Of a stretch of DNA of 64,000 nt, positions 3,483 through 18,400 are shown piece after piece (position 1 is the first letter of the stretch; each line of letters opens with the position of its first letter). The position numbers and the translations under genes are program-made. Source of the DNA: Crambe crambe (Eukaryota; Porifera; Demospongiae; Poecilosclerida; Crambeidae); contig OZ004589.1 of NCBI GenBank assembly GCA_963924555.1, positions 5,456,001 to 5,520,000 of the forward strand, written 5' to 3'. The notes below the pieces were generated by a model. It had not been told where the DNA came from. It saw nothing but the letters and a program-made list of their open reading frames with translations, and did not search any database.

Positions 3483-6400
3483 ATGGCTACTGCCAGAGAT
3501 AATTTTATCGATATTGTTACTGTAAGTTGTACGTATAGCTAGCTAGTACAGTCAATTGTGTCTTAAAGAAAAAGTTTAGCTATACCTTAGCCAAGAGTAA
3601 CTATAATAAAGCCAGGTATTGATTTTGAATCATTGTAGGCAATTGAAACACATCCTGAAGATGGGAAAAGGAAGTTCAATGATTTTTGTGAGCATCATAA
3701 TGACAATGAAATAAGAGATCTTGTGTGTCATGCTGATGACAGAACAGATGACCTAAATTGGAAATTTATGGGGAGAAGTTTGATCACAAGAAAAACCTTC
3801 ACTTTGCTACATTATGCTGTTGCTAAAGGACGTGTAGAAACAGTGAAATTATTAATTAGCAAGGGTGCTGGTAAGCATTACTCATAACCCTCATTAGACA
3901 GGGAGAGTATTCGGTGGAATGAATACTGGAATGGAATACTACCTACACTAAATTAAATTATCCAGCCACCAGTTTCTTTCTGACATTAAATTAATACAGC
4001 TAGCTAACTACCTTCAAGTGATATCAGTGCTCGTGTATCTTCCTGCATGGGAAATTTTTATTCTCCTGCAGGAAACTAATCATTATCAGTACATCCTCAG
4101 GAACTGTTGATAATATAGTTATAGTAGGAACAAGTGATCAGCAGCTATAGGTAGCATGTGCTCACATGATCATATCTCCTCCAGAGGTGTTGGAAGTAAG
4201 ATTCGATTGGTCAAGTTCGAAATTGAAACGTAATCCCCCAGACCACCGAAGTTCTACAGTTTGCTATACTCAAGCATCATAATTATGTATACGATGCTTT
4301 CTTAAGTTATCGATTGATAGCCACATAATAATAAACCCCAAAATATTTTGTTATCGTTTTGATAGCCACTTAATAATTAACCTTGTTTATCCCAAAGTAT
4401 TGGTCAGGCCTGGGCCTGTCCTTACCTGTTCCACCGCCTATGTGACCTCTTGTACACTCCAACCCTCTGTGAGAGTAATTTTTTTTAATGTTTATATTAA
4501 GTCTACCATGTAGCTGTAGCTAGAATAATTCCTGTTTACAGTTTTCATGTTCATTGTTTACAGCTTACTTATAATTAGCTTTAATTTTCATGTTATTATT
4601 GAACATGACCACAAATTTCCCAATTACAGGTGTATGTATCCAAAGTTACCACATCCACCTTAATTAACTGCATCACACTGATGCATGTTAACTGTATCTG
4701 AATTGGCACAGATGTTGCCAGCAATCAGATTTAATACCCATGTATTTATAATAATTATTGTTGATGGAGAGCTAAGGAGCATGTGTGTTTAAATCATAAA
4801 ATAGCCATTTAAATCTTGGATTCCATTATTCCATTCCAGCCATTCCCAATCCACTGAGACACCCCAAGTACAACTCTCTATACGTAGCTGTAGATTCAGG
4901 GTGATTTTCTATGGTTTATGAAAACTATAATGAATTTGTCATTTTCAGCATTCACCTAGTTAAATTATTTACCCATTATGATCACATCTATGGTCATGGC
5001 TGAAAAGAGAGGATCATTCATGCTAATCTGGCATATATTATTGTGGCTTTTGCATGCATGTAACTAGTCAATTAGCCATCAATTATGATCATTACAGATC
5101 CTGCTGCAGTACAGGAAAAGCAAGGGAATGCACTTCACTTTGCTACAATGTTAGGATCTGGAGATGAAATGCTCAAGGCGATCTTTGATGCATATTTTGA
5201 GACACGTAAAAAGAAAATGTAATGGCTATCTAGCAGTCACTTTGAGTGGGCGGGTTGTTATTACAATAAGTATAAGTACATACAGTTTCATAGAGGGAGG
5301 TTGGAAACCTGGGATTCCTCTCCCTCCCCCCCTCCTGTTAAAATGAAAGTGTGTACTACACACTAAATACACACATTAAAAACAAAATAGTGTGTGTATC
5401 AAGACAAAAATCAATGGTGATGTGCAAGAAAGACTTTCATTTTCAGTGTATAGAGTAGGAGATAAAAATACAGTTTTAAGCAGAAACATAGAAACATAGA
5501 AGAGAAACAGAGAGAGCTCAACATGTCTCCGAGCAACAGATATATAATTGAGAGGTGAGGCTGCAGACTTTGTATTGACAACCGATGCATTTAACCTTCT
5601 AACACACAAAGCAATGCTAAATTATTGCTCAGTCTGACTAGCTATATTATTTTTGCGTAAGCCACCAATTATCTACCCTTGAACTGTATCTCCCTCACCC
5701 ATGGTCGTCAAAGTCTCAAATAACAACCATAGGAAAGATAATTTCATCCTCTATAATATCATATGAATTTTTTTCCTCACAATGATATTAGATAGAAATT
5801 TTTGCTATTTTAATTCTTTAGCGGATTAGAAGTATTCAAGCAGGTGAATTCTTTTTCATGGACTTCTTTATTCTATGCCATCAAAAAAAAAGATGGCGTG
5901 ATGGTGAAATATTTACTGGAGAATGGTGCAGGTATAGCTATAAATAAAGCATGCAGCTGCTACGTGTAATTAAGCTATCTGATTATGTGATGCAGATGCC
6001 AGAGAAGTTATTGAAGGTCAGTGGATATTTGGTCCAAATAATATTCATTATTATTGAAGAACAAAATATCACAGATAATTTGATTTTCAATTTTTTGAAA
6101 ATTAAATTTTGAAAAATAACCAATTTTTTTTATGGATTTAATTTGTGAAAATCAACTGAAATCTTTTAAGGTCACATTTTTTTTCATTTTTAATATTGTA
6201 GCTTGATTCCACTAACGCCACAGTACCATGTATTTTTAATTTTCTCGTCTTTTGATTACACTGATGCCGCAGTACATGTGATTCGGTACAGTATCACCAA
6301 AACTGTAGGCCTACATTATATGCATACAATCTCTGTCACTAATACCCTTTACCACAAACTACATGGACCACACTAACTTCGAGTTCCAGTACCTGCCATC

Positions 6401-15400: not shown

Positions 15401-18400
15401 CATATAGTTGAAAGGATGTGGAGCGAAATTAATGTTAGAGTGAACTACCTAATTAAATCCATTCTAGTGGATCTGGTTGACAAAGGTGAAATCAATCCAG
15501 ATTATTCTCTTCATTATTTTTGCATTTCCTGGTTATGTACAAGAGTTTCTTTTGTTGGAATTGAGTTATTTATCAAGTCTTGGAACAATCATCCTATCCC
15601 AGGTAAGTTGAACTGTGAGTGTGAGAATATAAAGACAATGCTTATTATAGCTGGGTATAGAGTCCATTTGCCTTGAGGAAATGGTATACCTGTCAGCTTG
15701 TCATGTTCATCTGCAGGTAGGAGGAAGGGTAGAATGCCAGCTCATATCCCAGTGCAAGTTATGAGAGTGAACAATAAAGCTTCAGTAATTAACGCTGACC
15801 TCATTCTGCATCCACAGCAAGCTATCGATCAGTACCGATTGAAAGGTGGCAGTATCACAGATCCAGAACAGCACATTCAGGATCCGTTATTTGATGACCC
15901 CTCAAAAATGGATATTCGTCTCGTTTCATTTAATAAAAGATTTCCATCAATTGATGCCATTTTTCATGGTGTGGTTAATGGAAATGCTACCATGTTTATT
16001 GATGCTCTCAAATTTTTTATTGATGTTACTTTTAGACTCTCTCATAGCTAAGCTTTATTGATGATAATTTTTTTCCCTCGTTGGCAATTTCAGTATAGCT
16101 GCTGGGTTATTAATTCAAGTGTCCAGAAAAACAGTTATGGTAGTAGCTATAGCAGCTATCATACAATCACTTAATCTAGTTCTGAAGACAAAGCGACATA
16201 CATCATGCCAGACCCTGAAGAATAAAGATTATTGTTGTGAAGAATGAAGACATTCAGCGACTTACAGCCCCTTGTGAAGATTGCCTTGATTGAAGAGACA
16301 TGCGTACATGCATGCAATCACTGCATTTGGGGAGTGAGAGATGCTATCGTTCCAGTGCATGCAGGTGGAGAGTGAGGCATGCAATCATTCCAGTTCCTGC
16401 ATGTGAGGAGTGAGACATGCAATTGTTCCAGTTCTGCATGCATGTGGAGAGTGAGGCATGCAAGTGTTCCAGTTCCTGTGCATGTGGGGAGTGAGGCATG
16501 CACAGTTCTGCATCCATGTGGAGAGTGAGTCGTTCCAGTTCCTGCATGTAGGAAGTGAGACATGCAATTGTTCCAGTTCTGCATGCATGTGGAGATTGAG
16601 TCATTCCAGTTCCTGCATGTGGGGAGTGAGACATGCAATCGTTCCAGTTCCTGCTGGCATGTAGAGAGTGAGGCATGCAAGTGTTCCAGTTCCTGTGCAT
16701 GTGGGGAGTGAGGCATGCACAGTTCTGCATCCGTGTGGAGAGTGAGTCGTTCCAGTTCCTGCATGTAGGAAGTGAGACATGCAATTGTTCCAGTTCTGCA
16801 TGCATGTGGAGAGTGAGTCATTCCAGTTCCTGCATGTGGGGAGTGAGACATGCAATCATTCCAGTTCCTGCTGGCATGTAGAGAGTGAGACATGCAATCG
16901 TTCCAGTTGAGTCAGATATGCAATCACTCCTGTTCCTGCATGCAGAGAGAAGAGTAGAGGGATGCAATCACTCCAGAGAGAAGGAAAGGGGGGAGGGACA
17001 TGCCAATCCTTGAATACATGCAACCCTACATTGTAGCTACATACTGCCTGCAGTCCCTGCATGCATGAAGAGTAGCTAATCACTCCAGTCCCTTTCTAGA
17101 GAGTGAAGATATTCCAATCATTCATAGAGTAGCTAATCACTCCAGTCCTTTCCGGAGAGTGAAGATATTCCAATCATTCCAGCCCAGTCCCTGAAGACAT
17201 GCATGCATGCATGCATGCAACGGCTCCAGTCCCATGCAGTTAAGGTGGAGCCGATTATGCTCAAGTCATATTATTATTCTCCTTTTCTTCTCCTTCAAAG
17301 CCATGCCCAAGTTTTGGAGCCTGCATATTGTGTGTGAATATAATGATACTGAAAGACCAATGAATTTCAGGCTATGGGCTAGGAGTAGCTATATGATCAA
17401 ATCGTATGTCTTGCCCTGTCTATAGTAATAAGTATTATCACACACCCCATGCATGGTTGCTACATTGAGGGGGTGCTAGGTGTCCAATCCCCTAGGACAG
17501 CTGAAGATGAATTATATAAATATACCCCTGGGTGACTGATTCTTGCTGACAAGTCAACTCCCTTCATTTTTCCATGGAATTCTACTGTTCAGCAGTATAT
17601 AGATATGATAGGTTTAAAACATAAATGGAGGACATAATTATGTGATCCTGTTTCATTTGCTATATAAAAATAGTCATTGCTGTCATACAAAAAAGGAAAG
17701 GAAAGGAGCAGGCATGCTAGTCTTGCAAGTAGAGGATCCTAGATCCAAATTTCTTGAGGGATGCTAGGGGTTCTGTGATACCGGGGCCTTAGAGCATGCT
17801 TATTTGTGCTAACTAGATGAATGCTGTGTGGGGACCAGATTTTAGGAAAAAACAATCTCAGCAGCCTACTCATCTGTAGCTAGGGACCATAAGGCTAATA
17901 CTATACTTTCTTCTTCAACATTCCGATCAGGTAAAGTTCACAAGGTGCATAAGCTAGCTTAGCTTATCACATTGCGATAGTCTGGTGGCGTCGACCTTTT
18001 ACCTCATTTTCCTTAGGTAAAGGGTCAACGCCGCCGGTAATAGTCGTCAATTTTTAATTTTCAATTTTCTATTCGTATTAAAATGCAAAGCATGAAGCAA
18101 AACTGCAGTATCATACAGGCTATTAAATAAGAGTGTGCTACTATGCTATTAATCAATAATCATGAAGGATGCGCCGAGCCGCCGCAGGCGGCTCGGCGCA
18201 TCCTTCATGATTATTGATATAGCATTGGCCCAAATATCCACTGACCATTGAAGAATATGGGAGTACTGCGTTCCTTTTTACTGCGAAATACTCCTCTGCT
18301 GAAATCTTTGAAATTATGTTGGATCATCATAAGTTGTAGGCTCTAACTGATAGTGTAATCCGACTATAATTATATTAAAATTAATTTTATTATAGGAAAG

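Follow-up and report, generated by a model that had tools for sequence, protein, structure and literature searches.

Transposons that land in exons can be spliced from pre-mRNA via sites in the element or in its flanks, often imprecisely, as C. elegans Tc1 and maize Ds/dSpm illustrate. For these, splicing was shown experimentally; at the locus described here, in the sponge Crambe crambe, it is a prediction from sequence geometry. Gozashti et al. 2022 (PMC9860276) describe introner families whose median lengths fall at 30-654 nt; these occur in 5 to >2,000 copies per genome, derive from nonautonomous elements and, among animals and land plants, are known from two groups only, both animals; those of Amoebophrya carry repeats, both inverted and direct, and are predicted to form hairpins (PMC7789003). 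The stretch analysed, referred to as the window, comprises 64,000 nucleotides (assembly GCA_963924555.1, contig OZ004589.1, positions 5,456,001 to 5,520,000; all window positions are counted from its first letter). In it, a 12,231-bp DNA transposon (6016..18246, + strand) interrupts exon 5 of one copy (copy A) of a tandemly repeated channel gene, such that the element could, on paper, be removed as an exact GT-AG intron. As in introners of the type of Fig. 2C (PMC9860276), the donor would lie within the element, the acceptor would come from the target and the mRNA would keep its length, here on paper; unlike introners, the element is 12.2 kb long, apparently autonomous and seen in few copies, and its splicing is hypothetical. 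We consider it probable that this is a young, probably disruptive transposon insertion in exon 5 of one tandem channel gene copy, with an exact-intron geometry that arose by chance.

The original prediction of a two-gene transposon within a coding exon is borne out by the repeats, the duplications and two predicted genes. Direct reading and a repeat search delimit 22-nt terminal inverted repeats, complementary at 21 of 22 positions (95%, one mismatch), at 6016..6037 (+, starting GGTCAGT and carrying the candidate donor GT at 6017-6018) and at 18225..18246 (-). They are flanked by ATTGAA target-site duplications at 6010..6015, where the pre-insertion ATTGAAGAA is uninterrupted in the nearest paralog (L063), and at 18247..18252, from direct reading and sister copies. 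A 17-mer of the terminal repeat, with up to three mismatches, occurs twice in the window (shuffles: mean 0.10, none of 100 with two), and the element and its boundaries are above chance. The boundaries are fixed because other copies carry different 6-bp duplications, and the position of these duplications sets the element termini as GG..CC. Near the right end, a subterminal palindrome (18143..18225) has 32-bp perfect arms (18152-18183/18187-18218), the helix extending by seven further pairs.

Sister copies, labelled by contig (C1, C6, C12a, C16 and so on), were sought in the 143 Mb, 119-contig genome, and their census rests on one end-pattern search with up to two mismatches, which gave 60 ends (27 + 33), 25 of them exact, compared with 6 + 8 for a reversed-pattern control. 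Flanks were inspected for 37 of the 60 ends (the 25 exact ones, one GGTGAGTGG and 11 GGTGAGTGA/T); the 23 others, which have one or two mismatches, were regarded as unrelated or due to chance, and contig C73 contributes only its end. Eight long facing pairs, the window copy included, have an exact GGTCAGT end, and six of them carry perfect 6-bp duplications (CTAAAG, AAAGGA, GAAACC, ATTGAA, AATGAG and CAATTG), as do two pairs of a GGTGAGT subfamily (GCGTAC and ACGCAC). Single ends were left out of these counts, and a matching duplication was lacking at C8, C10, L033/L034 and L039/L040, which were dropped from them. Over ~12 kb, mismatches to the window copy, counted as substitutions in the main aligned pieces with indels and short unaligned gaps excluded, number 21 for C6, 37 for C1, 42 for C12a and 64 for C16 (0.2-0.5%). 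Since the sister copies differ by so few substitutions, the window insertion is, judged by sequence identity, young, and its survival therefore tells little about tolerance. The coding blocks of C1, C6, C12a, C16 and C8 are nearly the same as those of the window copy, and tblastn stop counts in these copies equal the window copy's, where the alignments run into introns. The two copies with extra inserts, C8 and C10, are 97-99.9% identical to the window copy in most longer pieces (94% in one C10 piece); in C10, several additional kb sit at the equivalent of window position ~15416, within transposase exon 4, and in C8 the extra DNA lies elsewhere. C17 is an older, diverged relative (last ~0.3 kb 83%, first 0.3 kb 73% and protein blocks 48-66% identical).

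Two observations on related ends stand apart from this census. At L021 (C10:1938594-1938601), six bases (gtgaag) are all that separates a pair of elements of this lineage, as if one had used the other's duplication. Three places on C13 (1954253, 1963813 and 1971028), considered as an ancient end of the element next to a conserved exon, with a possible intron in a duplicated gene, were set aside: they match the element over its last 63 bp only (two places) or 65 bp (the third), and the five 10-kb stretches around there (L042-L046, C13:1936001-1986000) show multi-kb tandem units of ~87-94% identity, in which just this small piece of the right end is preserved at the three places.

Both genes of the element are by-eye predictions, which for the transposase drew on reading frames and GT-AG sites. 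The transposase is a 415-aa protein encoded in five exons at 14111..16051 on the + strand (14111-14344, 14667-14992, 15197-15344, 15398-15602 and 15717-16051). It matches PF24764 (rva_4, integrase core; E=1.5e-16) over residues 141-320, and by eye we read the D of HIDQNEK, the D of VDYGREW and the E of ERMWSEI as putative catalytic residues. Fifteen related proteins were found, 14 of them with PF24764 and the best at 62%; the 12 named matches come from sponges (eight; Amphimedon, Dysidea, Corticium, Oscarella), fish (three) and Hydractinia (one), and no solved structure was found by sequence search. In the whole genome, a PF24764 profile search gave 155 matches, with 150 of 326 candidates scored. 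The second gene (12288..13932, - strand; exons 13932-13786, 13672-13219 and 12790-12288) would encode a 367-aa RING-like protein, whose zf-C3HC4_3 match (E=0.0052) is below the Pfam cut-off and whose seven relatives all lack a source name. The two predicted genes are divergently oriented, 178 bp separating their start codons.

IS3EU proteins presumably match PF24764 as well, and on its Pfam match the element's transposase may belong to the IS3EU/GingerRoot clade. According to PMC10045372, IS3EU elements usually make 6-bp duplications and their complete families always have TA..TA ends, while GingerRoot ends are mostly TA..TA and occasionally TG..CA. Our element shares with both (same source) an integrase-related transposase and the 6-bp duplications; unlike either, it ends in GG..CC, neither TA..TA nor TG..CA, and carries a RING-like accessory gene. 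Its two oppositely oriented genes recall the fungal TET-bearing IS3EU elements, which, according to PMC12730594, end in TAYGG..CCRTA and pair their transposase with a second gene that runs the opposite way. By its ends, it looks like a novel form of IS3EU-like element, and a literature search gave no title on this element among the matches listed. The element also contains a minisatellite-like array (window 16300-17230), which includes two 217-nt units of 97% identity, and a nested 86-nt inverted repeat (99%; 9631-9831), possibly a small inserted transposon. Further, its stretch 8742-9392 resembles a repeat that lies at 26810-27018, within the region of channel copy A, and on either side of the C6 copy, which suggests that another repeat may be nested in the element.

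The interrupted gene, copy A (3639..30617, +), is recognized by exon blocks collinear with those of copy B (44476..51749, +); among five channel reading frames scanned, one matches ankyrin repeats above the Pfam cut-off, one Ion_trans below it (22.7 vs. 25 bits) and three have no match. The element splits exon 5 of copy A between two codons, into pieces of 21 nt (5996..6016) and 82 nt (18254..18335) that sum to 103 nt, the length of the uninterrupted exon 5 of copy B (45808-45910). A 364-nt empty-site query gave at least seven matches, every one of them on C12: two come from the halves of copy A, one from copy B and four from paralogs beyond the window (L063 at 88%, L066 at 80% and two weaker ones); an unplaced haplotig with an empty copy A allele was not found among them. 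Exon 5 is uninterrupted in the nearer paralogs, L063 and L066, and the tandem array offers redundancy. The nearest paralog, L063, carries, as assembled, an in-frame stop in exon 4 together with a change in A-run length (L063 1503-1615); the stop lies at the A-run and is possibly a sequencing error. Elsewhere in the window, long reading frames on the - strand (34554-36110) include a cysteine-rich, CXC-like motif and perhaps belong to another mobile element.

Joining 6016 to 18254 yields DAREVIEEYGSTAFLFTAKYSSAEIFEIMLDHHKL, compared with DATSFIEEFGGTSFVFTAWLSSAEIFKFMVDYHGL in copy B; that is, removal of 6017-18253 (12,237 nt) restores the 103-nt exon 5 exactly on paper, as it stands in copy B, L063 and L066. 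The earlier claims that the terminal repeat supplies one potential splice site and the duplication plus the next base the other, and that the pre-insertion exon would be recreated exactly, thus hold on direct reading: the donor GT lies in the left repeat, and the candidate acceptor AG, a weak one (18252..18253, +), takes its A from the duplication and its G from the exon. Of the 1559 dinucleotides in 11 channel exon pieces, 129 (8.3%) are AG, and in the window 6.8% are, so that chance alone gives an A|G fit at the duplication at about 1 in 12 positions in such exons, and no excess over chance is shown; if the element is unspliced, the case warns that the geometry of an exact intron may come about by coincidence.

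Four of the six duplication-flanked copies lie in reading frames, the window copy by homology and C1, C12a and C16 by open reading frames of 146, 245 and 141 aa, reached by 6, 0 and 7 of 1000 Markov shuffles, respectively. The frames at C6 (66 aa, 242 of 1000 shuffles), C17 (32 aa, 952) and C3b (54 aa, 657) are not significant; the frame at the window site spans 53 aa (452 of 1000), the exon being short and its coding status resting on homology. Upon removal of the element to the first AG in the sense direction, the net change is 0 nt in the window, +1 at C1, -26 at C12a and -10 at C16, and at C1, C12a and C16 the frame is lost whichever of the first three AGs is used. Over ten readings (the window, C1, C12a and C16 in the sense direction; C6, C17 and C3b on both strands), exact restoration is possible in two, the window and the plus strand of C6. 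The introner trait of element and target each supplying one splice site is seen, as geometry, at the window and at C6, the latter without a significant frame, and the other trait, several copies serving as introns in different genes, is not: one of four in-frame copies, a small number, has an exact GT-AG outcome. At C1b (GGTGAGT, GCGTAC), outside the ten readings, the 30 right-flank bases displayed contain no AG. Current counts, small as they are, reveal no enrichment of GT-AG-compatible targets. The frame at C1 lies upstream of an integrase domain and, by helix-turn-helix and rva_4 matches, belongs to another transposon's gene; around this site (L009-L011, C1:7720181-7747893), a GGTCAGT and a GGTGAGT element lie 184 bases apart in one transposase-like gene.

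Under the reading we favor, a recently active, apparently autonomous cut-and-paste transposon would have landed in exon 5 of a single gene of the channel array. Unspliced read-through would add GQWIFGPNNIHYY and then a stop, so that most transcripts of the copy A allele would be truncated or end within the element. Persistence of the insertion would reflect its youth and redundancy, possibly with polymorphism, and redundancy may explain persistence even with a nearest paralog that carries a stop as assembled; the geometry would be a chance meeting of the terminal-repeat GT with a target A|G. Splicing as the reason why the insertion is tolerated, as originally suggested, finds no support in a very young copy with a weak acceptor, three in-frame sisters without a fit and several tandem paralogs.

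Several observations weigh against the favored reading. The exact A|G fit on the C6 plus strand is a second such case, at the second AG (the first would add 3 nt), and the candidate donor outscores ~95% of the GTs in the element (5.1% of 680 are as good). Copy A was, as far as its sequence suggests, not plainly dead before the insertion: of 29 matches of copy B frames to it, 23 are open, and each of the six that contain stops overlaps a stronger, open match in a different frame. Exon 6, absent from these 29 matches, rests on the comparison with L063, from which the badly aligned exons 3 and 7 (48%) were excluded; there, 218 of 227 ungapped columns are identical, and the two exons differ in length by 27 nt. 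Identity to L063 in ungapped columns is 94-96% for introns 3-5 and 89% for intron 6, next to 92% (gaps counted) for exon 4 and 94% for exon 5, and over exons 5-6 the nonsynonymous (dN) and synonymous (dS) divergences are 0.039 and 0.083, from 10 and 5 differences only. Overall, constraint on copy A is weak to moderate.

The best placed alternative, which we nonetheless regard as unlikely, is that the spliceosome excises 6017-18253 (12,237 nt) as an intron, fully or partially, and copy A still makes protein. Exact restoration of the exon and the mostly open remainder of copy A are in its favor, as are the donor and, conceivably, the stable hairpin discussed below. Scored with small matrices built from the predicted introns of the two channel copies and of the element's two genes (18 acceptors and 17 donors; candidate sites scored with the full matrix, modelled sites left out one at a time), AAG|GTCAGT reaches 6.09, a mid-range value (seven of 17 modelled donors are lower and one is equal at printed precision). 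The claim that GTCAGT is a natural donor in both channel copies agrees with its occurrence at 24275 (A) and 47965 (B), in or beside matching exon blocks. The acceptor speaks against splicing. CCATTGAAG scores -1.45, with 16 of 18 modelled acceptors higher and 34.9% of the 856 AGs in the element at least as good, although one modelled acceptor is also AAG, and a better AG (4.1) lies 31 nt upstream at 18221-18222, the use of which would leave 31 extra nt. The CTGAC proposed as a branch-site-like word is present; its A (18244) precedes the G in the candidate AG by only 9 nt, close for an ordinary branch site. Just 5' of the acceptor, 18120-18270 would fold as RNA into a stable hairpin (-79.1 kcal/mol, z -11.24, none of 200 shuffles equally stable), which could block splicing or, less likely, help it by masking the better AG and bringing an upstream branch site near 18252-18253. 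Further against splicing, the eight modelled introns near the site span just 58-1227 nt (gaps between copy A exon blocks elsewhere reach ~3 kb), and the element has, as a raw count, eight AATAAA words on the sense strand; the three in-frame sister copies that lack a fit count against it as well.

A broader version, that this is an autonomous introner-like intron donor, an animal transposon with a donor in either orientation and an AG-masking hairpin that is efficiently spliced wherever the target gives A|G, appears to us quite improbable. Still less credible is that selection keeps the ends of this lineage splice-competent, thereby generally masking exon insertions: the ends examined do read GGTCAGT or GGTGAGT, the latter a consensus-like donor, although the search pattern itself required such ends, and the acceptor must come from the target, where it fits in two of ten readings, while transposase recognition explains the terminal repeat equally. 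An assembly artefact, conceivable since misjoins are possible with repeats this large, deserves almost no weight given the perfect duplication, the exact empty site and both flanks continuing the same gene.

If the element is spliced, the birth of an intron from an autonomous animal transposon would have been caught in the act, with empty paralogs adjacent. If it is unspliced, as we consider probable, a young element that combines an rva_4 transposase, GG..CC termini and a RING-like gene would extend the described range of IS3EU-like transposons.

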